Assembly: GCF_001984035.1 (NCBI RefSeq)
Contig: NZ_CP019449.1
Location: 3,658,001 to 3,722,000, forward strand
DNA length: 64,000 nt
Direction: 5' to 3'
Origin: Sphingopyxis sp. QXT-31
Lineage (GTDB): Bacteria > Pseudomonadota > Alphaproteobacteria > Sphingomonadales > Sphingomonadaceae
Below the pieces are notes generated by a model. It did not search any database. It was not told where the DNA came from and saw only the letters and a list, made by a program, of their open reading frames with translations. Both the position numbers and the translations under genes were made by a program. Positions 22,322 to 37,195 of this stretch are shown here, piece by piece; the first letter of the stretch is position 1; each line of letters opens with the position of its first letter.

Positions 22322-23151
22322 GCTCAGGACCTATTAAAAAGCTTGCGCGTGATGGGAGTGGGTGATTCAAGGGTTGCGGGATGTGCAGCCATGGGTGATT
22401 TGCTGTTGCTGAGCGAGGCGCAGATGCGCCGGATCGAGGGCTATTTTCCGCTGTCGCACGGGATACCGCGGGTCGATGACCGGAGGATATTGAGCGGCAT
22501 TTTCTTCGTGTTGCGCAACGGGGTGCGCTGGCGCGACGCGCCGCGGGATTATGGGCCGCACAAGACGATCTACAACCGCTTCATCCGCTGGAGCCGACTG
22601 GGGGTGTTCGATCGTATCTTTGCCGAACTGGCCAAGGATGGCGATGGGGTGCTGATGATCGATGCGACCCATATCAAGGCGCACCGGACGGCGGCGAGCC
22701 TCTTCAAAAAGGGGCTCTACCCCGCGCTATCGGACGCAGCCGCGGCGGCCTGACCAGCAAGCTCCACCTCGTATACGACGGTCGGGGACGGCCGCTGCGG
22801 CTTCACCTGACCGAAGGACAGCGCAGCGATCACAAGGGCGCCGAGGCGCTCATCGGCAGCCTGCCCCCGGCCCGAACCATGATCGCCGACCGCGCCTATA
22901 GCTCGGCCTGGTTCCGCCAGGTGCTGGCAGCACGCGCCATCGACGCCTGCATCCCCCCGCACCCCACCCACAAGGTCCGGCACGACTACGACCGGACCCT
23001 CTACAAACAGCGCCACCGCATCGAAAACCTCTCCGCCCGGCTCAAAGACTGGCGCCGTATCCATACCCGATACGACCGATGCGCCGACATCTTCAAAGCC
23101 GCCATCACATTCGCATGCATCTGCATCTTCTGGATTAATGAGTCCTGAGCC
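22321..23151 (+). mobile_element. IS5-family insertion sequence (IS427-like)
   Basis: An 831-bp element. The ends are inverted repeats: GGCTCAGGAC at 22321 matches GTCCTGAGCC ending at 23151, and the match continues with mismatches. A TA direct repeat flanks it (22319-22320 and 23152-23153), in a CTAG context as typical for this IS group. It carries one transposase split into two frames. The insertion lies between the unknown lipoprotein cassette and popZ. Confidence 0.92.
22391..23148 (+). CDS. IS5-family transposase in two frames (-1 frameshift)
   Basis: The first frame runs from the ATG at 22391 to a TGA at 22751-22753 and contains the first catalytic Asp (VLMIDATHIKAHRTA). The second frame, one base back, reads IGRSRGGLTSKLH from 22729. 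It carries the second Asp (MIADRAYSSAWF) and the Glu (RHRIENLSARLKDW), ending at 23148. A shift site CAAAAAGGGG lies at 22705-22714, inside the overlap; slipping back one base there gives QKGALPRAIGRSRGG, which is the normal family sequence. This matches programmed frameshifting known in IS427-group elements, so the element may be active. Confidence 0.88.
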
Positions 23152-26092: not shown

Positions 26093-26166
26093 GGCCCGAT
26101 GGCGGAGTGGTGACGCAGCGGACTGCAAATCCGTATACGCCGGTTCGATTCCGGCTCGGGCCTCCA
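26093..26166 (+). tRNA. tRNA-Cys (GCA)
   Basis: GGCCCGA (26093-26099) pairs with TCGGGCC (26156-26162), followed by discriminator T and an encoded CCA. The anticodon stem GCGGA/TCCGT encloses CTGCAAA, with anticodon GCA at 26125-26127. The T arm is GCCGG-TTCGATT-CCGGC. The discriminator U fits tRNA-Cys identity. The 198-bp region after it (26167-26364) holds nothing I can identify. Confidence 0.97.
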
Positions 26167-26364: not shown

Positions 26365-27060
26365 TTACGTGCCTGCATTTGCAAAAGCCGACATATAACG
26401 CTGTTCCAGCGTTGCATGCACATTCTCGGAGTATGAAGTATCAAGTTCCAAGGCTGCCTCGAAACATTCGATAGCCTTCACATCCGCCGCGACGTCGCCT
26501 TCCGCCCAAATTGACGCATGGCATAGCAAACCGATATAGTCGCCTTTGCGTCGTACAAGCGACGCGGTACCGGCCAATTTCCGCCCCGCCGATACCAGAT
26601 TGAAGCGGCCGTCGCAGTGGCTGCCGTCTACACGGCCCAGGCATGCGCGGACGCCTATCGAACATATCGACGCTGCCAGATGTTCGCAGAATATCCGGAA
26701 CCGACGGATCGCATCGTCGCCGTCCCCGCGCCACGATTGAAGATGGCTGGCGTTCAGTGTGCCGGGCCGGTGCGCCACCGTCGTTCCCCCACTCGGCCGC
26801 ACAAACACCGGCCACCCTCGGCAGGCGCTCTCCAGCGCTGCATCGGCGAAACGGGGCATAGCCGCAAAACGCCGCGTCGTGACGAGACAAGGGCGGTTCG
26901 TCCAGAGCCGCCACCCGCCCGCGCTGGCGTCACCCCCGAGCAGCGCGTCGAGGCGCACGGAATCCGCGTCGATCGCTGTCCGTCCGTCGCCGCACTCGAC
27001 CGGAACATCATCCGCTATCGCCATCGCCAGGCGCGACACGATCGTCGGCGGCATGATCAT
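26365..27060 (-). CDS. Lipoate-protein ligase-like protein
   Basis: The 231-residue product belongs to the biotin/lipoate ligase fold. The lipoate-adenylate motif reads RPSGGTTVAHRPGTLN (about residue 90), in the place of the usual RRxSGGG-H-GNLN. The catalytic lysine motif AGRKLAGTA is near residue 160. It is shorter than E. coli LplA (about 340), lacking the accessory domain. The ATG directly follows the stop of the lipoyl-domain gene, so its substrate is probably that protein. Codon use and base composition look less GC-rich than neighbours. Alternative: an octanoyl-transferase-type LipM/LipL protein. Confidence 0.75.
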   Translation of the reverse strand: MIMPPTIVSRLAMAIADDVPVECGDGRTAIDADSVRLDALLGGDASAGGWRLWTNRPCLVTTRRFAAMPRFADAALESACRGWPVFVRPSGGTTVAHRPGTLNASHLQSWRGDGDDAIRRFRIFCEHLAASICSIGVRACLGRVDGSHCDGRFNLVSAGRKLAGTASLVRRKGDYIGLLCHASIWAEGDVAADVKAIECFEAALELDTSYSENVHATLEQRYMSAFANAGT

Positions 27061-27291
27061 TCAGACGATCCGTGCCGCCACCGCCCCCGCACGCACCGGG
27101 ACCTCAGCCGCGATCAGGATTTGCAGCGTTCCGGTGGCCGACGCGATGAGTTCATAGCTCGATTTCTCCACCATGATCTCGGCGATGATCGCGCCTTCCG
27201 CGACGGCGTCGCCATCCGCATAGAGCCATGCCGAGATCGCGGCTTCATCGTCGGCGCGCCACACGCCGAATGGAATCGTCACATCGGTCAT
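27061..27291 (-). CDS. Stand-alone lipoyl-domain protein
   Basis: At 76 residues this is just one biotinyl/lipoyl domain, with no E3-binding or acyltransferase domain. The modification loop is IMVEKSSYEL and the acceptor is Lys43. The family normally carries lipoamide on a swinging arm between E1, E2 and E3 of 2-oxoacid or acetoin dehydrogenases, or in the glycine cleavage H protein. Its ATG shares a base with the E1-beta stop (TGATG) and its stop touches the ligase start. It is most likely the lipoyl carrier for the E1 encoded just before it. Confidence 0.85.
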   Translation of the reverse strand: MTDVTIPFGVWRADDEAAISAWLYADGDAVAEGAIIAEIMVEKSSYELIASATGTLQILIAAEVPVRAGAVAARIV

Positions 27292-28334
27292 CAGTTCGAA
27301 ATCCTCATCATCTGGCGCACGGCGGCCGTGACCTTGTCGGCATTGGGCAGCACGAAATGCTCCATCACCGGGGTGAAGGGCACGGGAATGTCGGGGAAAG
27401 CGATGCGCTGCGGCGGCACGAGAAGCGGGATGCTAGCTTCGCAGACGCTAGCGATGATCTCCGCGCCGACGCCGTAGCTCAGATAATCATCGTCGACGAC
27501 AAGCAGCCGCCCGGTCCGGCGCACCGATGCGCGCACCGTTTCGCGGTCGAGCGGCGCGATGCTGATCAGATCGATGACCTCGACCGAAACATCCTCGTTG
27601 GCGAGCCGCCCGGCGGCGTCGAGCGCCTGATGAACCGAAAGACCCAGACTCACGACCGTAATATCTTCGCCCTCGCGCACGCATTTCGCTTTGCCGAGCG
27701 GGACGACATAATCTCCCTCGGGCGCATCGGTGATCGAACGCTGCACGGTCCCGAGCCAGCCCATGCCCTGCAGAGCCTTGTGATACATGAAGATCACCGG
27801 GTTGGGATCGCGGATCGCCGCCAGCATCAGGCCCTTCGCGTCGTGCGCGTTCGAGGGAATGACAACCTTCAGCCCCGGCAGATGGCCGAAGGTCGCGTAG
27901 AGCGCCTGGCTGTGCTGACCGGCGTCGCCATAGCCGCCGCCGACGCTGGTCATCAGCACCATCGGACACGTCACCTGTCCGCCCGAAAAATAGCTCTGCT
28001 TGGCCGCGAGATTATAGATCGCGTCCATGCACACGCCGAAGAAATCGACGAACATCAGCTCGACCACGGGGCGCATTCCCGCAGCCGCGAGGCCCACCGC
28101 GGCGCCGATAAAGGCGGTCTCGGAGATCGGCGTATCGCGGACGCGTTCGGGGCCGAAACGGTCGAGCAGCCCGGTTGTCGTGCCGAAGACGCCGCCGAGC
28201 TTTGCAATGTCCTCGCCCATGACGAGGACATCGGGATCGCGCTCCATTTCCTGCCCGATCGCTTCGGCGATCGCGCGGGCGATGGTCAGGCGGCGAGCCG
28301 GCCTAACGGCCGTTGCGGTGTCAGGCGAAGACAT
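27291..28334 (-). CDS. 2-oxoacid/acetoin dehydrogenase E1 beta subunit
   Basis: The 347-residue product is a transketolase-type beta subunit that, with E1-alpha, forms the thiamine diphosphate site. Family signatures include MGEDIAKLGGVFGTT near residue 40, DTPISETAFIGAAVGLA near 65, QHSQALYATFGHLPGLKVVIPS near 130, and a C-terminal PFTPVMEHFVLPNADKV. It resembles acetoin dehydrogenase and branched-chain E1-beta. I chose the ATG at 28334; it overlaps the end of E1-alpha by 14 bases. The complex should sit in the cytoplasm. Confidence 0.88.
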   Translation of the reverse strand: MSSPDTATAVRPARRLTIARAIAEAIGQEMERDPDVLVMGEDIAKLGGVFGTTTGLLDRFGPERVRDTPISETAFIGAAVGLAAAGMRPVVELMFVDFFGVCMDAIYNLAAKQSYFSGGQVTCPMVLMTSVGGGYGDAGQHSQALYATFGHLPGLKVVIPSNAHDAKGLMLAAIRDPNPVIFMYHKALQGMGWLGTVQRSITDAPEGDYVVPLGKAKCVREGEDITVVSLGLSVHQALDAAGRLANEDVSVEVIDLISIAPLDRETVRASVRRTGRLLVVDDDYLSYGVGAEIIASVCEASIPLLVPPQRIAFPDIPVPFTPVMEHFVLPNADKVTAAVRQMMRISN

Positions 28335-29310
28335 GGGCAAAAGCCTCTTCTGGATCGGGATAAGCCGCGGCGCGTGCGAAGGCGAAGGCGGCATCGACGG
28401 CCGCCCGCGCGTCGGTCTCGGCGCGGTCGAGGTCGGCCGCCTCGAAACCGTCGGTGAGCAGGCGCGCGCGATAGGCCGGAATGGGATCGCTCGCCTTCAA
28501 CCGCTGGACCTCCCCCTCAGGCCGATACCCTTCCGCGTCGCCCATAAAATGTCCCTCGAGCCGGCAGGTCTCGATCTCGATCAGCGATGGGCCCTCGCCG
28601 CGCCGCGCGCGAGCGATCGCCGCTCCGGCAATGGCATGGACCGCGTCGGCGTCGTTGCCGGCAACGAAATGGCCGGGCATCGCATAGGCCGCCGCGCGAT
28701 CGGCGTTGCGCTCGACCGCCGTGCAGTCGCGCTTGGAGACGGAGATGCCATAGGCATTGTCCTCGATCACGAAAACCGCCGGCACCTTCCACACCGATGC
28801 GAGATTGAGCGCCTCGTGAAAGGCCCCCTGGTTCGCAGCGCCCTCGCCGAGAAAGGCGATCGCGACAGTATCGTCACCGCGCAGCTTGCTCGCCAGCGCC
28901 GCGCCGACCGCTGGCCCCAAACCCTGCGCAATGATGCCCGAACAGGCGAAATTCACCCGAGCGTCGAACAAATGCATATGGCCGCCGCGGCCGCCCGACA
29001 GCCCGCTCGCCTTGCCGAAAATCTCCGCCGCCATGGCGCCCAGATCGACCCCCTTGGCGATCGCGACATGGTGCGGGCGGTGCGTCGCGGTGACCGTATC
29101 GCCGGGCCGAAGATGCGCGCAGACTCCCACGGCGCAGGGTTCCTGCCCGTCGGACAGATGCATCTCGCCCGGGAGAGGCCCCTTCGCCATGTTGAACACC
29201 GGGCTTTTGCCTTCGAAATAGGCGGGCTTGATCAGTGCCTCGAAATGGCGGCTCTTGACCATCGTGGCGTACATCCACAGCCGGTCGCTGGCGTTGCTCG
29301 CGCCGCTCAT
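28321..29310 (-). CDS. 2-oxoacid/acetoin dehydrogenase E1 alpha subunit
   Basis: The 329-residue product has the thiamine-diphosphate motif FLGEGAANQGAFHEALN through VIEDNAYG (GEG in place of GDG) around residues 148-180. Upstream are THRPHHVAIAKGVDLGAM and GGRGGHMHLFD, which match the acetoin dehydrogenase AcoA pattern more than pyruvate dehydrogenase E1. The likely reaction is C-C cleavage or decarboxylation with transfer of the acyl unit to lipoamide. The ATG at 29310 overlaps the SDR stop by ATGA. Substrate is inferred only. Confidence 0.87.
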   Translation of the reverse strand: MSGASNASDRLWMYATMVKSRHFEALIKPAYFEGKSPVFNMAKGPLPGEMHLSDGQEPCAVGVCAHLRPGDTVTATHRPHHVAIAKGVDLGAMAAEIFGKASGLSGGRGGHMHLFDARVNFACSGIIAQGLGPAVGAALASKLRGDDTVAIAFLGEGAANQGAFHEALNLASVWKVPAVFVIEDNAYGISVSKRDCTAVERNADRAAAYAMPGHFVAGNDADAVHAIAGAAIARARRGEGPSLIEIETCRLEGHFMGDAEGYRPEGEVQRLKASDPIPAYRARLLTDGFEAADLDRAETDARAAVDAAFAFARAAAYPDPEEAFAHVFA

Positions 29311-30080
29311 CGCGCGACCCATCCGCCATCGATGACCAGTTCGATCCCGGTCACGAAACGCGCTTCGTCGCTGCCAAGATAAACCGCGCCCATCCCGATA
29401 TCCTCGGGACTTCCCACCGCGTTGAGCGGGCACAGCGAAGCGACCGCGGCCCACGGATCGTCGGCGGGGATCGACCCTTCGCGCACCCAGCCCTCGACCG
29501 CCATTTCGAGCATCGGGGTACGGATGCAGCCGGGGTGGATCGAATTGCAACGGATCGGCAGTGCATGGGACGCCCACTCGATCGCGAGGCTCTTGGTCAT
29601 ATGGCGCACTGCGCCTTTCGACGTATTATAAGCGAGCTGGTCGGGATAACCGACGAGCCCCGCAATCGACGAGATGTTGACGACGCTGGCCGCACCACTC
29701 GCGGCGAGCAGTGGCTGCATCGTCCGGCAGCCGAGGAACAGTCCGTCGACATTTACCGCCATCAGCCCGCGCCAGTCGGCAAGGCTATGCTCGGTCATCG
29801 GCTTGACCAGTTCAACGCCGGCATTGTTGACCAGGATCGAAAGGCTGCCGTGCGATGCAGCGATATGCCCGGCCGCGGCGGCCCAGTCGTCTTCGCTCGT
29901 CACGTCGAGCGCCAGCGCCTCGACGCCGATCTCGTCCGCCAACGTCTCGCAGCCCGCAACATTGCGGTCTGCTGCGACGACGCGCGCGCCTTCGGCCGCC
30001 ATCGCCCGCGCGATCCCCGCCCCAATGCCTTGTGCTGCGCCCGTGACCAGCGCGACCTTGCCTGCGAGCCTGCCCGCCAT
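29307..30080 (-). CDS. Short-chain dehydrogenase/reductase
   Basis: The 257-residue product is a classical SDR: TGAAQGIGAG cofactor motif at residue ~14, NNAG at ~86, the catalytic Ser in NISSIAG and YNTSK at ~150. Asp in AADRN after beta-2 points to NAD(H). It is the first gene of the E1/lipoyl operon, so it probably oxidises an alcohol to the keto or hydroxyketone substrate of E1, as butanediol/acetoin dehydrogenases do in acetoin operons. Substrate is not shown by the sequence. Confidence 0.9.
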   Translation of the reverse strand: MAGRLAGKVALVTGAAQGIGAGIARAMAAEGARVVAADRNVAGCETLADEIGVEALALDVTSEDDWAAAAGHIAASHGSLSILVNNAGVELVKPMTEHSLADWRGLMAVNVDGLFLGCRTMQPLLAASGAASVVNISSIAGLVGYPDQLAYNTSKGAVRHMTKSLAIEWASHALPIRCNSIHPGCIRTPMLEMAVEGWVREGSIPADDPWAAVASLCPLNAVGSPEDIGMGAVYLGSDEARFVTGIELVIDGGWVAR

Positions 30081-30150
30081 ATCCGTCTCCCATCGTCTTT
30101 GGTCCGGACTAGGAGAGCGGACGCCTCGTGACTTGCATCAGAAAGGCGGC

Positions 30151-31146
30151 TTATTTGGGCAGGAAGGAACTCGCAGCTTCTCCGTCCCGGCTCTCGGCCG
30201 CCGCCCGGCGAAAGGTGCGCGGCGAGAGTCCGAAAGCATCGCGAAATGCATGGCTGAAATGCGAGGCATCGGCGAAGCCGTGCCGCATCGCGATCTCGGT
30301 GATCGAGTAGGAAGCCATCGACCGGCTCGACAGGTCGCTCCGTGCCGCGAGCAGACGGCGTTCGCGGATCCAGGTGCCGACGGTGACGTCGAACTCCTCG
30401 AACAGGCGGTGGAGATAGCGCGGGCTGAACCGGAAGGCCGCCGCGATGCTCGCTGCGGACAATCCGGGGTCGCCGAGATGCGCCACGATATGATCTTGGA
30501 CCCGGCCGAGCAGTGCGCGGCGAAAATTGGTGCCGCCGAGCTTCTCGGTGTCGGGGCGAAACGCCGCCGCGACCAGTTCGACCGTTGCGCGCAGCACCGC
30601 GGTCCGGTCGCGTGGATCGACGGTTTCGACCGTGCGGTGGATTTGCCGCAGGTGCGACAGCAGAATTGCGCCCAGTCCCGCGCTGCCGTCGACGGTGAGC
30701 CCGCACATATCCTCGATCCCCGGCACGATCGTCTTCGCCATCTGGTGCGGGATCATGATCGACAGCTGGTGCAACTGCTCGCTGTTCTGGAACATAGCGG
30801 GACGCGTGCTGTCCCACACCGCGATCGTGTCGCGCCGCACCACGGATTCATTGCGCCCCTGCCGCAGCAGGCAATTCCCCTCCTCGAAATGGAGCAGGCA
30901 GAAATAATCCTCGGTTCCGCGCTTCACATCGTCCATCGTGCGGTAGCCGGTGACGGGGTCGCACACGATGTCGGTAAAAACGAAATCGTCGATGGCGCGC
31001 CGGCGCACCTGCGCGTCGTATCGCTCGCCATTGCCCTTGCTCAGCCCCCAGTGGAAATGCGTCCGGTCGAACACTTCCTGGAATCCCGGCAATTGCCGTG
31101 GCGGCGGCAAATGCGCCGATGTCCATTGTTCCTCGGTCAGAAGCAT
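30151..31146 (-). CDS. AraC-family transcriptional regulator
   Basis: The 331-residue product has an N-terminal sensor part of the AraC_binding_2 type and a C-terminal double helix-turn-helix (FSPRYLHRLFEEFDVTVG near 235 and ITEIAMRHGFADASHFSHAF near 285, then FGLSPRTFRR). The start is the ATG at 31146 after GGAGAG. It is transcribed away from the TBDR at 31423 and 70 bases before the SDR, so it is placed to control both arms of the catabolic cluster. The divergent 276-bp region (31147-31422) is the probable control region. Confidence 0.88.
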   Translation of the reverse strand: MLLTEEQWTSAHLPPPRQLPGFQEVFDRTHFHWGLSKGNGERYDAQVRRRAIDDFVFTDIVCDPVTGYRTMDDVKRGTEDYFCLLHFEEGNCLLRQGRNESVVRRDTIAVWDSTRPAMFQNSEQLHQLSIMIPHQMAKTIVPGIEDMCGLTVDGSAGLGAILLSHLRQIHRTVETVDPRDRTAVLRATVELVAAAFRPDTEKLGGTNFRRALLGRVQDHIVAHLGDPGLSAASIAAAFRFSPRYLHRLFEEFDVTVGTWIRERRLLAARSDLSSRSMASYSITEIAMRHGFADASHFSHAFRDAFGLSPRTFRRAAAESRDGEAASSFLPK

Positions 31147-31422
31147 TGGCCTGCCCTCTCTCCAACGCGGCAAGCTATGCCTTTTGGCGTGGCGATGCAA
31201 TCGAGGGGGCGGCCGGGTTCACGCTGACACAAATATGGCTACGCGATGAGACAATTGCCGCCACAAAAGCACGGCCTTCCGTGCGCTTTGCGCCGCACGC
31301 AGTTCCCGCTCAACCAAATTTTGCACCGCTCAGGCACATGCGCCAAGCATCAGCACCGGCCTAGAAGACGAGAACAGCAGGACGCCCAAACAAAGGGCGC
31401 CGATATCCTGGGAGGGGACATC

Positions 31423-33645
31423 ATGAAAAGCCAGTTCCGAACTTCGCTACTGACCGCCGCCACCGTTTCCGCACTTGCTTTGGCCGCGCCGGCGTTTGCG
31501 CAGGACAGCGCCGAGGGCGACCCGCCGACCGGCGGCGTCGGCGAAATCGTCGTCACGGCGCAGAAGCGCGCGCAGAATCTACAGGACGTCCCGATCTCGG
31601 TCAGCGCGTTCGACGACACCGCGATCCGGGAAGCGGGCTTTACGAACAGCCTGTCGATCGGCGACCAGGTTCCGAACCTTGAGATCAAGACGTTCGGCGG
31701 CGTCCCCAACATCTTCATCCGCGGCGTCGGCAACAATGATTTCAACGCCTCATCGATCGGTCCGATCAGCATCTACCGCGACGATGTGGTTGTCGCCTCG
31801 ACCGGTAGCCAGATCTTCTCGCTGTTCGACCTCGAACGGATCGAGGTGGTGCGCGGCCCGCAAGGCACCCTCTTCGGCAAGAACACGACCGGCGGCGCGA
31901 TCCAGTTCTTCTCGAAGCTTCCCGATGGCGAATTCGAAGGCAATGCCCGCTTCGGCTATGGCCGTTTCGACCTGTTCGAAGGCGAGGCGGCGGTCAGCCT
32001 GCCGCTGGCCGATACGCTTTCGCTGCGCGTCGCGGGAATCGTCCGCCGCCGCGACGGCGAAAAGGTCAACCTGTTCACCGGCGACCGCGCGATCGATGTC
32101 GACGAAGCCGCCGCCCGCGCGATCCTGCGCTGGCAGCCGTCGGGTGACACCGACGTCCGCTTGTCGGTCGGCGGCGGCCGCGACCGCAGCGATTATCTTG
32201 AAAACAAGCCGGTCGGGACGATCAGCGGCGCCGACCTGTTCGGCTATTCCGACCCCTTCCCCGACAATCCCAATTTGCTCAACTTCAACGGCCAGTCGCG
32301 CAATCACAGCGACAATGTCTTCGTCAATCTCAACATCGCCCAGAGCTTCGGCGACTTCACCTTCAAGTCGATCAGCGGCTACGACAAGAGCGATGTCGAC
32401 AACCGCGTCGATGTCGATGGCGGCACCAAGCGCGTCGATGAAATCACCTTCCTGACCGACGCGAAACAGCTGACCCAGGAGTTTCAGATCGCCTATGATA
32501 ACGGCCCGCTCAACGCGATCGCGGGCCTTTACTATTTTCAGGAGAATCTCGACGCCGACAGCAATGCCGATCTGCTCGGCGAATTGACTTTTGCGCAGGG
32601 TGCGCTGCCGCTGATCACGCGCGCGACACGCAAGAACCGCGCTTATGCGATCTTCGGGCAGGCGACCTATGCGGTGATGCCGACGCTGCGATTGACCGTC
32701 GGGGGGCGTTACACGATCGACAAGGTGCGCGCGACGCACCGCGCCGATCTGGTTCCCGGTTTCTTCGATGCCGACATTCCCGACGGCGCACCGGTGCCGC
32801 TGGTGCCCTTCGCGGCACTGCGCGATACCTTCAAATCCTTCACGTGGCGGATCGCAGCCGACTTCGACGTGACCGACGACATACTGGCCTATGCCAGCAT
32901 CGACCGCGGCTTCAAGGCGGGCGGCTTCAACATCGGCATCATCACCAGCATCGCCGAGCGGACGCAGGTCGATCCCGAATATCTGACCTCTTATGAAATC
33001 GGGCTAAAGAGCACCTTGTTCGATCGCCGCCTGCGGTTGAACCTCTCGGCCTTCTACTACGACTATACCGATCTGCAGGTGCTGTCGGTGAACCGGCAGG
33101 CGGGGAGCGCGGTGCCGACGCTGGGGCTCGACAATGCCGCCGACGCCACGATCAAGGGGATCGAGGTCGAGGCGACAGCCGTGCCGACGGACTGGCTCGA
33201 CATGGGACTCAACCTCGGCATCCTCGATGCCAAGTACAAGAATTACCTGTCGGGTGCGATCGATCCCGTGACCGGCGATCCGCGCGACTTTTCGGGCAAC
33301 CGCATGCCCGGTGCACCGAAATTCACGCTGTCGACCTTTGCACAGGTCACCGTGCCGGTGGGCAGGTTCGAGACGCGCTGGCGTGCCGAGTACAACTACA
33401 CCGGCAAGAAATATTACAACAATGCGCAGGACGAGCTGATCAGCTCGGGCGAAGGCTATGGCCTGCTCAATCTGCGCGTCGCCTTCGCCGATCCCGACCA
33501 GGGATGGGAACTCGCCGCCTGGGCGAAGAACGTCACCGGAAAGGCCTATATCGTCGATGCGACCGACACGAGCGGCTTCGGTTTCGTGCCCCGCTATTAT
33601 GGCGAGCGCGCGACCTATGGCGCCGAATTTTCCGTCCGCTTCTGA
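31423..33645 (+). CDS. TonB-dependent outer-membrane receptor
   Basis: The 740-residue product has a signal peptide ending APAFAQ, a TonB box-like segment EIVVTAQKRAQNLQDVPISV, a plug domain with IFIRGVGNNDF and LERIEVVRGPQGTLFGKNTTGG, and a beta barrel ending in Phe (AEFSVRF). The sequence style (AQKRxQNLQDVPISV) is that of sphingomonad receptors for hydrophobic or aromatic compounds. ATG follows GGAGGGG. It begins the plus-strand arm with the cupin and acyl-CoA synthetase; it likely imports the substrate of the pathway. Confidence 0.93.
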   Translation: MKSQFRTSLLTAATVSALALAAPAFAQDSAEGDPPTGGVGEIVVTAQKRAQNLQDVPISVSAFDDTAIREAGFTNSLSIGDQVPNLEIKTFGGVPNIFIRGVGNNDFNASSIGPISIYRDDVVVASTGSQIFSLFDLERIEVVRGPQGTLFGKNTTGGAIQFFSKLPDGEFEGNARFGYGRFDLFEGEAAVSLPLADTLSLRVAGIVRRRDGEKVNLFTGDRAIDVDEAAARAILRWQPSGDTDVRLSVGGGRDRSDYLENKPVGTISGADLFGYSDPFPDNPNLLNFNGQSRNHSDNVFVNLNIAQSFGDFTFKSISGYDKSDVDNRVDVDGGTKRVDEITFLTDAKQLTQEFQIAYDNGPLNAIAGLYYFQENLDADSNADLLGELTFAQGALPLITRATRKNRAYAIFGQATYAVMPTLRLTVGGRYTIDKVRATHRADLVPGFFDADIPDGAPVPLVPFAALRDTFKSFTWRIAADFDVTDDILAYASIDRGFKAGGFNIGIITSIAERTQVDPEYLTSYEIGLKSTLFDRRLRLNLSAFYYDYTDLQVLSVNRQAGSAVPTLGLDNAADATIKGIEVEATAVPTDWLDMGLNLGILDAKYKNYLSGAIDPVTGDPRDFSGNRMPGAPKFTLSTFAQVTVPVGRFETRWRAEYNYTGKKYYNNAQDELISSGEGYGLLNLRVAFADPDQGWELAAWAKNVTGKAYIVDATDTSGFGFVPRYYGERATYGAEFSVRF

Positions 33646-33668
33646 CCCTCTCAAACGAGTATTTCAAC

Positions 33669-34061
33669 ATGATGGATGAACATCTGACGCCTCCCGCCGC
33701 CATGAAATGGGCAACGATCGCCGACGGGATCGAGTTTGCATTGCTCTATTCGAGCGCCGAGACGGGCCGCTGGACCGTGTTGTTTCGCGCCCAGCCCGGC
33801 AGCTTCTTCGGACCGCACCGCCACCTCGGTGCCGGGGAATATTATGTGACGAAAGGCCGGATGACGTACCGCATGGGCGAAGCGGGCCCCGGCACCTATG
33901 GTTATGAGCCGCTCGACGTGGTGCACGATCACACCGCATTTCCCGAATATACCGAACTGCTTTTCACCAACTATGGCCCGATTGCCTTTCTGGACGAAGC
34001 GGGCGAGATATCGTCGATCCTCGACCACAAGTTGCTGGAGGATCTTTCAGCGGCTGTATGA
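33669..34061 (+). CDS. Cupin protein, dihydroxyacetophenone dioxygenase-like
   Basis: The 130-residue single-domain cupin has the metal-site pattern HRHLGAGEYYVTKGRMTYR (about residues 49-67) and a later HDH in VVHDHTAF. This resembles ChrR-type cupins, including 2,4'-dihydroxyacetophenone dioxygenase and acetylacetone-cleaving enzyme, which split a C-C bond beside a carbonyl. It is 23 bases after the TBDR and four bases before the acyl-CoA synthetase. A C-C cleaving role would suit the alpha-hydroxyketone theme of the cluster, but a binding or isomerase role is possible. Confidence 0.75.
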   Translation: MMDEHLTPPAAMKWATIADGIEFALLYSSAETGRWTVLFRAQPGSFFGPHRHLGAGEYYVTKGRMTYRMGEAGPGTYGYEPLDVVHDHTAFPEYTELLFTNYGPIAFLDEAGEISSILDHKLLEDLSAAV

Positions 34062-34065
34062 GACG

Positions 34066-35949
34066 ATGAGCGCAACTTACGAAGACGCCTATGCGAGCAG
34101 CCTCTCGGATCCCGACGCCTTCTGGCTGGAGGCGGCCGGGGCCGTCGACTGGATCGAGCGCCCGCAGTCCGGATGGACCGAGGGCCGGGGCTGGTTCGCC
34201 GACGGCACGCTCAACACCTGCTACAACGCGGTCGACCGCCATGTCGCCGCAGGGCGCGGGAAAGACATCGCGGTCATCTACGAAAGCCCGGTTACGGGCA
34301 CACGCCAGCAGATCGATTTCGACACACTTCTCGAACGGGTGTCGCTAACCGCCGGAATGCTGAAGAACCTCGGCATCGCCAAAGGCGACCGCGTCATCAT
34401 CTATATGCCGATGATCCCGGAGACGCTCTTCGCGATGCTCGCCTGCGCGCGCATCGGGGCGATCCATTCGGTCGTCTTCGGCGGCTTCGCCGCTCCGGAG
34501 CTCGCCAAGCGTATCGACGATGCGGCGCCGCGCGCCCTGCTGACCGCCTCGTGCGGGATCGAGGGCGGGCGGATTCTTCCTTACAAGCCGCTTGTCGACC
34601 ATGCGCTCGCATTGGCGTCGCACCGGATAGAGCATGTCGTGCTGTTGCAGCGTCCGCAATGCGTCGCGGAACTCGTCCCGGGACGCGACCATGACTGGAC
34701 CGAAAGCTATGAAACTGCCGGCCCTGCCGCCTGCGTCCCCGTCGCTGCGACCGACCCGCTCTATATCCTCTACACCTCGGGCACCACGGGGACGCCGAAG
34801 GGCGTCGTGCGCCAGAACGGCGGGCATGCGGTGGCGCTCGCGTGGAGCATGCGTCATATTTATGGAGCCCAGGCCGGCGAGACCTTCTGGGCGGCATCCG
34901 ACGTCGGGTGGGTCGTCGGGCACAGCTATATCGTCTACGGTCCGCTGATCGCGGGATGCACCACGCTGCTTTTCGAAGGCAAACCGGTGGGCACCCCCGA
35001 CGCCGGGACGTTCTGGCGCACGATCACCGCGCATCGGGTCGACATCTTCTTCACCGCACCGACTGCGATCCGCGCGATCCGCAAGGAGGATCCCGAGGGT
35101 CGCTTCATTCAGGACATCGGCACCGGGCGCCTGCGCGCGATGTTCCTCGCGGGCGAGCGTGCCGATCCCGACACGTTGCTCTGGGCGGAGCAGCAACTGG
35201 ACATTCCGGTGATCGACCATTGGTGGCAGACCGAACTCGGCTGGCCTGCGGTAGCAACCTGCCTCGGGCTCGGCGACAGACGGCGGCGCGCGGGCAGCGC
35301 GGGTTTTCCGGTTCCCGGATTCCGCTTCGCCGTACTGGACGACGACGGCGCGCCGGTCGCACCCGGGGCGAGCGGTCATATGGTCATCGGGACGCCACTG
35401 CCGCCCGGTTGCTATTCGTCGCTATGGAACAATGTCGAAGGCTACGGCCGTGCGTTCCAGAGCTTTGCCGGTCATTATGAAAGTGGCGATGCGGGCCATG
35501 TCGACGATGACGGGTTCGTCCACATCATGGGCCGCACCGACGACATCATCAACGTCGCAGGCCATCGCCTGTCCACAGGGCAGATCGAACAGATCATCGC
35601 CACCCACCCCGCCATTGCCGAATGCGCCGTTATCGGCGCCGACGACCAGCTCAAGGGCATGATCCCGCTCGCCTTTGCAGTGGTCAAGAGCGGTGTGAAC
35701 GCGGCGGAAGAATTGTCTGGCGAGATTATATCTCTGGTGCGGGAAGAGCTTGGACCCGTTGCCGCTTTAAAGCAGGTCGTCATCGTCAATGCTCTGCCCA
35801 AGACCCGCTCGGGCAAGATTTTGCGCGCCGCCATTCGCGGGCTGGCCAACGGAAGAGACGTCGGCACGCCGCCAACGATCGAAAACCCCGGGGCGCTGGC
35901 AGCAATTGCAGCTTCGTTGCAAGTTCGACTGAATCCCCACTCCACATAA
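34066..35949 (+). CDS. Acetyl/propionyl-CoA synthetase (PrpE-like)
   Basis: The 627-residue product is an AMP-forming acyl-CoA ligase. The P-loop is YTSGTTGTPKGVVR about residue 236, the adenylation core is DHWWQTELGWP about 385, and the C-terminal hinge and Lys motif is TRSGKILRA about 585. The N-terminal ACAS-type part (CYNAVDRH) and VFGGFAAPELAKRI place it with PrpE/AcsA-type enzymes for short acids. It probably activates the acid released by the cupin or by lipoyl turnover. Translation is probably coupled to the cupin. Confidence 0.88.
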   Translation: MSATYEDAYASSLSDPDAFWLEAAGAVDWIERPQSGWTEGRGWFADGTLNTCYNAVDRHVAAGRGKDIAVIYESPVTGTRQQIDFDTLLERVSLTAGMLKNLGIAKGDRVIIYMPMIPETLFAMLACARIGAIHSVVFGGFAAPELAKRIDDAAPRALLTASCGIEGGRILPYKPLVDHALALASHRIEHVVLLQRPQCVAELVPGRDHDWTESYETAGPAACVPVAATDPLYILYTSGTTGTPKGVVRQNGGHAVALAWSMRHIYGAQAGETFWAASDVGWVVGHSYIVYGPLIAGCTTLLFEGKPVGTPDAGTFWRTITAHRVDIFFTAPTAIRAIRKEDPEGRFIQDIGTGRLRAMFLAGERADPDTLLWAEQQLDIPVIDHWWQTELGWPAVATCLGLGDRRRRAGSAGFPVPGFRFAVLDDDGAPVAPGASGHMVIGTPLPPGCYSSLWNNVEGYGRAFQSFAGHYESGDAGHVDDDGFVHIMGRTDDIINVAGHRLSTGQIEQIIATHPAIAECAVIGADDQLKGMIPLAFAVVKSGVNAAEELSGEIISLVREELGPVAALKQVVIVNALPKTRSGKILRAAIRGLANGRDVGTPPTIENPGALAAIAASLQVRLNPHST

Positions 35950-36086
35950 TCGCCAATCGCCGCTTACGGCCAGACCGCTTTCGGCGCAGATATAAAAAGG
36001 CGGACGCTACCGCCGCTTTCGGCTAGGGCATGCGTTCTCATCCTGCATGTCCGGACGGGCGCATGGCCGATGGGAGGGGGAAGCCA

Positions 36087-37195
36087 GTGAAGAAGCTGGG
36101 GCGGCGGACGGTGCTGGTCGGATCCGCGGCGATGACGGTCGGCGGCGCAGCCTCTGCCCGCGCGCGGGCGAACCCGGCATGTCCCGACGCCGATTCGGCG
36201 TGGATTCCGTCGGAGGCGCTGGTCGGCGAACTGCCGCGCCTCATGCGCGTCGCCGGGGTGCCCGGCGTCGCCATCGCGGTGGTCGACCGCGGGCGGCTCG
36301 CCTGGAACCGGGGCTTCGGCGTAAAGAACATCCTCACCGGCGACCCGGTGCGCGAGGACACGCTGTTCGAGGCCGCGTCGATGACCAAGCCGGTCTTCGC
36401 CTATGCCGTGATGCGGCTGGCCGACGAGAAGCGCCTCGATCTCGACGCGCCGCTCGTCGCCTATCGCCGGCCCGACCATCTGGGCGACGATCCGAATCTG
36501 GAACGCATCACCGCGCGGCACGTGCTGGAACATTCGACCGGCTTGCCCAATTGGGCATCGGCGCCGCTCGTCACGAGCAGCGCGCCGGGATCGGGGTACA
36601 GCTATTCGGGCGAGGCCGTCGTCTGGCTTCAGCTGGTCGTCGAGACGATCATGGGCATGGGGCTCGGCGACGCGATGCGGACAAAATTTTTCGAGCCCGC
36701 GGGCATGTCCAGCAGCAGCTTCGGCTGGGACGAGGCGATCGCGGCGGCCGCGGTCTACGGTCATTCCGAGCCGCCCGAAGGCGAAGCGACGCTGCCGCCG
36801 CAGCCGACGCGTGAACTCGGCGACAAGCTGCTTGCGATCGCGGTGAAGCGGCGCAAGCCGATCGCGTCCTGGCCCTAGGCGGATTCGGTCGCGGCGATGT
36901 GCGAGATGGATCCGAAGGCGGTGCCGTCGACGCACGACCTGCTGGTCAATTCGGCGGGCGGCCTCCTCATGACCGCGTCCGACTATGCGCGCTTCATGGC
37001 GCTGATTATGGACCGGCGGGCCCGCTGTTTCAGCACAGCGGCAGCAATTACGGGATATTCAAGACGCTGGGCGTGGGCGACGCGCGCAACGGGCGCGCGA
37101 TCATCGTCTTCACCAACGCCGCGAACGGCAATGCGCTCGCCGCGCGCATCGTCCGCGAGGCGACCGGGATCGACCGTCTGAAAACTTTGATCTGA
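36087..37195 (+). pseudogene. Decayed serine hydrolase (beta-lactamase fold)
   Basis: The frame begins with a GTG at 36087 (ribosome site GGAGGGGG; twin-arginine-like signal KKLGRRTVLVGSA) and has the active-site SMTK near residue 95. An in-frame TAG at 36876 interrupts a normal family stretch (SWP-stop-ADSVAAM, where relatives have Tyr). After SDYARFMALIMDRR about 50-60 residues are missing, including the WGLGW region, and the reading frame shifts near 37015-37030. The C-terminal part (LFQHSGSNYGIFKTLG) continues in another frame to 37195. Two independent lesions make it non-functional. Confidence 0.85.

Follow-up and report, generated by a model that had tools for sequence, protein, structure and literature searches.

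Lipoyl-dependent E1 enzymes are, in the textbook account, one part of an E1–E2–E3 machine in which swinging lipoyl arm and acyltransferase both belong to the E2 component. Here we describe a gene cluster of Sphingopyxis sp. QXT-31 in which an E1 is encoded beside a free-standing lipoyl carrier and without an E2. The cluster lies in a stretch of 64,000 nucleotides (contig NZ_CP019449.1, positions 3,658,001 to 3,722,000; hereafter the window), and coordinates are counted from the first base of that stretch unless a locus label precedes them. An earlier reading of this DNA from its letters alone (the original prediction) had described nine genes, and profile scans recovered all nine in the positions given there:

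26365..27060, minus strand: single-domain LplA/LipB-fold protein, 231 aa (PF21948)
27061..27291, minus strand: free-standing lipoyl carrier, 76 aa, attachment residue Lys43 (PF00364, 31.5 bits)
27291..28334, minus strand: E1 beta (PF02779 and PF02780; NF006667, 326.3 bits, cut-off 321); the start, an ATG at 28334, is taken from the gene junction
28321..29310, minus strand: E1 alpha, thiamine diphosphate (ThDP)-dependent (PF00676, 223 bits)
29307..30080, minus strand: short-chain dehydrogenase/reductase (SDR; PF13561, 198.8 bits)
30151..31146, minus strand: AraC-family regulator (PF12833 and PF14525; NF007243 (FeaR), 132.6 bits, below its cut-off of 199); ATG start inferred from the open reading frame
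31423..33645, plus strand: TonB-dependent receptor (TBDR; PF00593 and PF07715); start inferred from the translation
33669..34061, plus strand: Cupin_7 protein of the Dke1 (acetylacetone dioxygenase) type; closest relatives in sequence and fold, Dke1 and 2o1q
34066..35949, plus strand: PrpE-like AMP-forming acyl-CoA ligase (PF00501, PF13193, PF16177; NF007815, 696.5 bits, below its cut-off of 955)

The minus-strand genes from the SDR to the LplA-fold protein form the tight operon that had been proposed, with an overlap or abutment at every junction. The SDR and E1α genes overlap by 4 bp (ATGA), E1α and E1β by 14 bp, and E1β and the carrier by 1 bp (TGATG), and the carrier and LplA-fold genes abut (TGAATG); there is therefore no space for an E2 gene in the operon. 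The AraC gene lies upstream on the same strand, and the TBDR, cupin and ligase genes occupy the opposite strand.

The window E1 is without a dedicated E2 anywhere in its genome, which bears out the absence that had been noticed in the operon. Profile scans of the five operon proteins found no E2 among them, either as an acyltransferase or in a lipoyl–alpha/beta-hydrolase form. The genome is a single contig of 4,285,026 bases with seven E1_dh matches, and its PF00198 acyltransferase cores number three, all far from the cluster and all in frames of 424–453 aa that include a lipoyl domain. No free-standing E2 core was found in this genome or in four near relatives, where cores occur only in frames of at least 392 aa. 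The E1 itself has the ThDP-binding fold in both subunits (PF00676, PF02779, PF02780). The usual ThDP/Mg motif is GDG...NN; the window E1α has GEG...EDN in place of GDG...ENN, and 95 of 105 E1α rows (family and outgroups) carry GEG...EDN; GDG...EDN occurs in L087, L091 and L149, GDG...ENN in the outgroups L164, L166 and L167, and four rows fall outside the pattern. In the carrier, Lys43 is conserved in 86 of 86 sequences. This protein of 76 aa matches PF00364, with no acyltransferase or subunit-binding domain found in it and no GcvH family match in profile scans, and its identity to the lipoyl domain that adjoins the pyruvate dehydrogenase (PDH) E1 of the genome is approximately 42% across 48 residues.

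The distribution of the system within the order was approached with the LplA-fold protein as the query, which matched 13 of 296 genomes, the window genome included, and the neighbourhoods of the other 12 matches were examined. Four genomes (G268, G267, G262 and G254) retain the window gene order, with G262 (L039) lacking prpE after the cupin. In G076 a single strand carries the TBDR, cupin, SDR, PrpE, E1α, E1β and lipoyl carrier (lip) genes, a 222-aa frame and the LplA-fold gene. That frame, like its counterparts in G098 and G188, encodes a free-standing E2 core, in which the motif reads DHRVVDG or DHAVIDG; in G188 the LplA-fold gene is about 8 kb away. G054 keeps the cupin, SDR, PrpE, E1α, E1β, carrier and E2 core together (L218) and has its LplA-fold gene on another contig. 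No E1 was linked to the LplA-fold match in 5 of the 12 genomes (G054, G240, G242, G275 and G278), and in the last four of these the match itself was at E 3e-7 or weaker.

A wider view came from named genomes, where an alignment of eight E1α sequences returned 511 relatives, of which the best 80 were analysed with profiles built from the family itself. Counts exclude the four loci whose contig ends before the carrier's place (L097, L108, L117 and L130). In all 76 remaining loci E1α is followed by a carrier match at no more than 4.5 kb, and an LplA-fold gene follows within a further 4 kb on the same strand in 69 and is absent there in seven. The system is conserved as a set, in agreement with the original prediction. 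A separate gene of about 220 aa for the E2 core stands no more than 1.5 kb after the carrier in 53 of the 76 loci and is missing there in 23. The distance from carrier to LplA-fold gene is correspondingly 707–2483 bases with the core (51 loci) and 52–354 bases without it (18 loci). Core-bearing loci occur in Stutzerimonas, Pseudomonas, Marinobacterium, Zobellella, Rhodobacterales, Hyphomicrobium, Hyphomonas and Phenylobacterium. Annotated plasmids of Phaeobacter, Gemmobacter, Paracoccus and Roseibium carry the five-gene order, and those of Sphingomonas, Rhodococcus and two haloarchaea carry E1α–E1β–lip–E2 core. The one E2 core scanned, that of L159, matched PF00198 alone, with no subunit-binding domain. 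The E2 of this family is split into carrier and core genes, and the window has one half only. Its lineage has thereby lost one subunit gene, which could be read as decay into a nonfunctional remnant; this we consider very improbable, given that the remaining gene order is kept in Sphingopyxis, Sphingosinicella and Sphingorhabdus (E1α 90–96% identical in the first two) and that E2-less operons persist in several unrelated genera.

Several details of individual loci are worth recording. The free-standing E2 core of Stutzerimonas (L159:13425-14126) has DHRAVNG where that of G076 has DHRVVDG, and L135 likewise has Asn at this position. On a Rhodococcus opacus plasmid (L162:6998-11082) the split-E2 operon ends in lipA, for lipoyl synthase, and not in an LplA-fold gene. 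An alpha/beta-hydrolase gene stands near the E2 core in two core-bearing loci, L041 (read by eye) and L161 (PF00561).

Two trees of the E1 address the history of the missing core, one of 67 rows from E1α and E1β, which omits 10 loci (incomplete genes or present twice) and 25 near-duplicates, and a careful tree of 42 rows. L138, where two E1α–E1β–lip sets face each other (L138:10028-17933), was scored as core-bearing, its second set having a free-standing core and its first not. Deep branches carry the E2 core in both trees, with six changes as the fewest in each. Because relatives, deep branches included, keep the split E2 core, its lack in the window is a derived state. The lack that had seemed unexpected is real, and it is secondary within a family whose core follows the carrier in most loci. 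A single E2-less clade was also considered; placing the 25 core-less rows of the cupin clade together was rejected (approximately unbiased (AU) test, p-AU 1.9e-5), for a group chosen after the first tree had been seen and with some long branches. The trees indicate that the core was lost more than once, or lost and then regained. Within the cupin clade the core-less rows comprise the window's sphingomonads, Croceicoccus, Dongia, and Parvularcula together with Sinimarinibacterium and a gammaproteobacterial metagenome-assembled genome (MAG). One further locus, L153, has a truncated carrier. Among 16 core-less named genomes searched whole, 12 have E2 cores only in frames of at least 350 aa, shorter cores, free-standing or broken, occur elsewhere in G301 and G306, and the matches in G308 and G309 are partial; all six core-bearing control genomes have an E2 core in a frame below 330 aa. 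Fused status in these searches was judged by frame length only, the window genome excepted.

The LplA-fold protein had been called a lipoate ligase. The LplA/LipB domain and its conserved lysine stand (Lys161 is present in 78 of 78 sequences and nearly invariant in a wider set of 29), and ATP-dependent ligation is called into question by Cys149, which is invariant in both sets (78/78 and 29/29). Cys149 aligns with Cys150 of 2p5i, a position that we take to be the catalytic cysteine of LipL, 2p5i and 2p0l being presumably of the LipL type. By fold, 2p0l (19.7) and 2p5i (18.9) rank above archaeal LplA (17.8) and E. coli LplA (13.7), a small margin, and the octanoyl-[GcvH]:protein N-octanoyltransferase model matches weakly (27.8 bits against a cut-off of 400). 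The window protein may accordingly be a LipL/LipM-like lipoyl or octanoyl transferase for the carrier, as opposed to an ATP-dependent ligase. It shares with LipL and LipM of Bacillus, as they appear in an excerpt of PMC7253636, a single-domain LplA fold and the cysteine found in 2p5i and 2p0l; it differs from them in that its function is a prediction and its identity to 2p5i and 2p0l in the fold alignment is 18%. The same excerpt warns that function in the LplA/LipB family is not readable from sequence, and the transferase reading is for that reason only a lead.

The cupin is likewise not what had been expected. It had been likened to 2,4'-dihydroxyacetophenone dioxygenase (DAD), and this is not borne out: as the nearest relative DAD was set aside because sequence and both fold comparisons place 3bal and 2o1q nearer to the window cupin, and the DAD structures 5bpx and 4p9g match the window cupin weakly in sequence (E 0.035). 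The best sequence and fold matches are Dke1, the nearest characterised relative (32% identity over the fold), and its relative 2o1q. The Fe-binding residues His62, His64 and His104 are kept in 29 of 29 aligned cupins, the window's included. All four second-shell residues are present in the window cupin, their conservation being 29/29 for Glu98, 28/29 for Thr107, 26/29 for Tyr70 and 25/29 for Arg80; every residue named as an Fe ligand or second-shell residue in a Dke1 review is thus retained. The window protein is accordingly closest to Dke1 and is predicted to be a beta-diketone dioxygenase and not an enzyme of the DAD type. Dke1 of Acinetobacter johnsonii (EC 1.13.11.50) has the same Cupin_7 fold, three histidines and equivalents of Glu98, Arg80, Tyr70 and Thr107, and it cleaves acetylacetone to acetate and methylglyoxal (PMC7226712, in excerpt).

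Where Dke1 differs is in what surrounds it, the window cupin being linked to an E1 and a lipoyl carrier. Among 385 genomes of the class, drawn blind to the system, this E1α occurs in five, and four cupins score above 200 bits, all in genomes with this E1α; the two genes are adjacent in 3 of 3 cases outside the window genome, all from one genus and found with a cupin model that included its L145 sequence. This co-occurrence and the conservation of the carrier and LplA-fold genes show the set to go beyond chance. In Dongia and relatives (L145, L157 and L212–L214, of which L145 and L214 probably represent the same genome), as in Sinimarinibacterium (L101), the cupin gene lies directly upstream of E1α–E1β–lip with a divergent AraC gene adjoining. 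Since these loci have no SDR or PrpE alongside (L101 has another AMP-forming ligase 3 kb on), the cupin with the E1 and carrier looks like the core of the pathway. Among named loci, 19 of the 22 that are cupin-linked lack the E2 core, and 19 of the 23 without a core are cupin-linked, raw counts that are suggestive of a coupling between the cupin and loss of E2. An AMP-forming ligase accompanies the cupin both with the core (L042, L218 and L098) and without it (window, L087, L101 and L107), and because it is present regardless of the core, the acid it serves is more plausibly the cupin's than the E1's. The PrpE-like ligase of the original prediction is present, and the role it was given, recovery of the E1's acid, is not required, the ligase also occurring in the E2-bearing L042, L218, L150 and L152. 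The last two, from a Croceicoccus MAG and an uncultured member of the Sphingomonadaceae, place the PrpE-like gene directly before E1α–E1β–lip–E2 core–LplA-fold gene, with a TBDR and no cupin match; by our reading they would represent a pathway variant that starts with a different enzyme.

Taking these lines of evidence together, we tentatively read the cluster, with confidence somewhat short of even, as a catabolic island under AraC control, whose substrate, a beta-diketone or beta-hydroxyketone, would enter through the TBDR and in which the E1 and carrier work without a dedicated E2. The SDR would oxidise the hydroxyketone to the diketone, which the Dke1-type cupin, by analogy with Dke1, would split with O2 to give a 2-oxoaldehyde and a carboxylate. 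Activation of the carboxylate to its acyl-CoA would fall to the PrpE-like ligase, and the ThDP-dependent E1αβ would oxidise the 2-oxoaldehyde or a product derived from it, loading the acyl group on the free lipoyl carrier, itself lipoylated by the adjacent LplA-fold protein and re-oxidised by the cell's common E3. For acyl release without a dedicated E2 we favour hydrolysis, which would be easy if the product were a 2-oxoacyl thioester, as such thioesters should hydrolyse readily. A stronger form of this proposal, in which E1 and free carrier make a complete E2-free unit that takes a 2-oxoaldehyde through a 2-oxoacyl-lipoyl thioester to a 2-oxoacid without acyltransferase or CoA, is in our estimate unlikely. 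If true, it would represent a new mode of lipoyl chemistry, one that arose as split E2 cores were repeatedly lost.

A number of points weigh against the diketone pathway and its E2-free E1. We know of no demonstration of a 2-oxoaldehyde as an E1 substrate. Three of the 22 cupin-linked loci (L095, L098 and L099) keep the E2 core, as do L042 and L218, the latter cupin-linked outside the main cupin clade; conversely, Halomonas (L149) and G474 (L215) are core-less outside that clade and have no cupin. A tree-based paired test of the coupling between cupin and E2 loss had four pairs only and was not significant. The ligase of L150 and L152, with an E2 core and without a cupin, does not fit a ligase that serves the cupin's acid. 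A more distant cupin, that of L164, lacks the equivalents of Glu69, Arg80 and Thr107. Housekeeping E2s could serve the carrier. Finally, the published acetylacetone pathway, in the same excerpt of PMC7226712, continues from methylglyoxal to lactate by glyoxalase.

A first alternative is service in trans. Here a housekeeping E2 core, that of PDH, 2-oxoglutarate dehydrogenase or the branched-chain complex, would act on the carrier, and the dedicated core, being redundant, would have been lost. The three housekeeping cores in the genome are in keeping with this, as is the disappearance of the core from several separate groups while the carrier persists. A diverged carrier with its own LplA-fold gene suggests instead a separate carrier pool, and plain redundancy does not predict that core-less loci should so often be cupin-linked, notwithstanding the non-significance of the tree-based test. 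On balance we regard trans-service as rather unlikely.

A second alternative accepts the cupin's 2-oxoaldehyde and has it first oxidised by an aldehyde dehydrogenase encoded elsewhere, the E1 then decarboxylating the resulting 2-oxoacid as an ordinary 2-oxoacid dehydrogenase would. E1β indeed passes the cut-off of the PDH E1β subfamily model NF006667, E1α resembles PDH E1α (TIGR03182, 269.6 bits, below the cut-off), and in L171 an aldehyde dehydrogenase is encoded some 1 kb away from E1α. We nonetheless doubt it: no aldehyde dehydrogenase is among the nine genes of the window cluster (the relatives were not searched for one), and a CoA product would still require an E2.

The original prediction had offered an acyloin pathway, in which the SDR makes an alpha-hydroxyketone, the E1 cleaves it in the manner of acetoin and the cupin cleaves another bond. 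The wider family lends this some substance, its neighbours being alcohol-oxidising enzymes: L159 has a glucose-methanol-choline (GMC) oxidoreductase, a gluconate-2-dh3-like subunit, a zinc-dependent alcohol dehydrogenase and a GAF-domain activator, a pyrroloquinoline quinone (PQQ) dehydrogenase occurs near L135 and in L164, GMC genes occur in L160 and L170, and sigma-54 activators recur in the wider family. Moreover, the haloarchaeal E1 pair HVO_0669/0668, which may or may not belong to this family, is 54/47% identical to the Bacillus acetoin E1 (PMC8305020, in excerpt). The window cupin is not of the DAD type, however, and in Dongia and Sinimarinibacterium no SDR adjoins the cupin–E1 core, making the acyloin pathway improbable in our view. 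From the earlier interpretation, then, the E1/carrier set without E2 survives, the DAD-type cupin does not, the absence of E2 proves to be secondary, and the lipoate ligase is in question.

With acetoin dehydrogenase and the 2-oxoacid dehydrogenase complexes the window system has in common an E1αβ and a lipoyl domain, and its E1α and E1β are 48% and 46% identical to those of L167, a cluster on a plasmid with an E2 annotated as belonging to acetoin dehydrogenase. The E2 of acetoin dehydrogenase may take a lipoyl–alpha/beta-hydrolase form. The window family departs from all of these in making its E2 from carrier and core genes, the window itself lacking the core, and from the 2-oxoacid dehydrogenase complexes also in the missing subunit-binding domain of the window carrier and the L159 core. 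The LbpA/LplA pair of sulfur oxidisers (PMC6067878, in excerpt) resembles the window in that an LplA-fold enzyme is dedicated to a free lipoyl protein; LbpA is, however, GcvH-like and works with Hdr-like proteins, whereas the window carrier is a Biotin_lipoyl domain beside an E1. None of the 12 annotated plasmid stretches lists an hdr gene. Among the literature matches listed, none described an E2 split between genes, an E1 with a stand-alone lipoyl carrier, or such a diketone cluster. Arm and acyltransferase are encoded apart in this family, whether in alpha- or gammaproteobacteria, a Rhodococcus or haloarchaea, and several separate groups lack the acyltransferase. If the E2-less forms work, then either a housekeeping E2 serves them in trans or the acyl group is released in a new way that needs no E2. 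A cupin of the Dke1 type, familiar from the breakdown of acetylacetone, is now tied to a specific neighbouring enzyme, which suggests that sphingomonads degrade beta-diketones.

An E1 and carrier without a linked E2 recurs. The same genome has a second operon at 689.6–694.5 kb, beside Rieske oxygenases, with the order SDR–GST (glutathione S-transferase)–E1α–E1β–lip–SnoaL–NmrA, a 76-aa carrier and no E2; its E1α is 42% identical to that of the window. This second E1α is found in 23 of 246 genomes of the order (25 matches at E 1e-100 or better). Fourteen of the 24 matches outside the window genome, from 12 genomes, were examined; no split E2 core was found in these 14 stretches (a fused-type E2 match lies at the edge of L248), and a carrier was recognised in 11, with L254 cut before the carrier's place. 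Whole-genome searches of 19 of the 22 genomes besides the window's gave exactly three E2 cores in 17, and four and five in the others. A plasmid of Sphingobium sp. RAC03 (L164:2619-10253) carries SDR–SDR–cupin–M24 peptidase–E1α–E1β–lipoyl–PQQ dehydrogenase with no E2 in the stretch; its E1α, 43.5% identical to the window's, is a distant E1 lineage with a Cupin_7 neighbour.

Few genomes of the genus contain the cluster, as expected of an island. No plasmid copy was found at megablast sensitivity, with no PLSDB record covering more than 9% of the cluster. A tRNA-Cys gene lies at 26093-26166, some 200 bases past the 3' end of the operon, and transposase-like fragments were read by eye at 22391-23148. 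On the other side, downstream of the ligase gene, a serine-hydrolase (beta-lactamase-fold) frame at 36030-37195 is, by eye, apparently split between frames.

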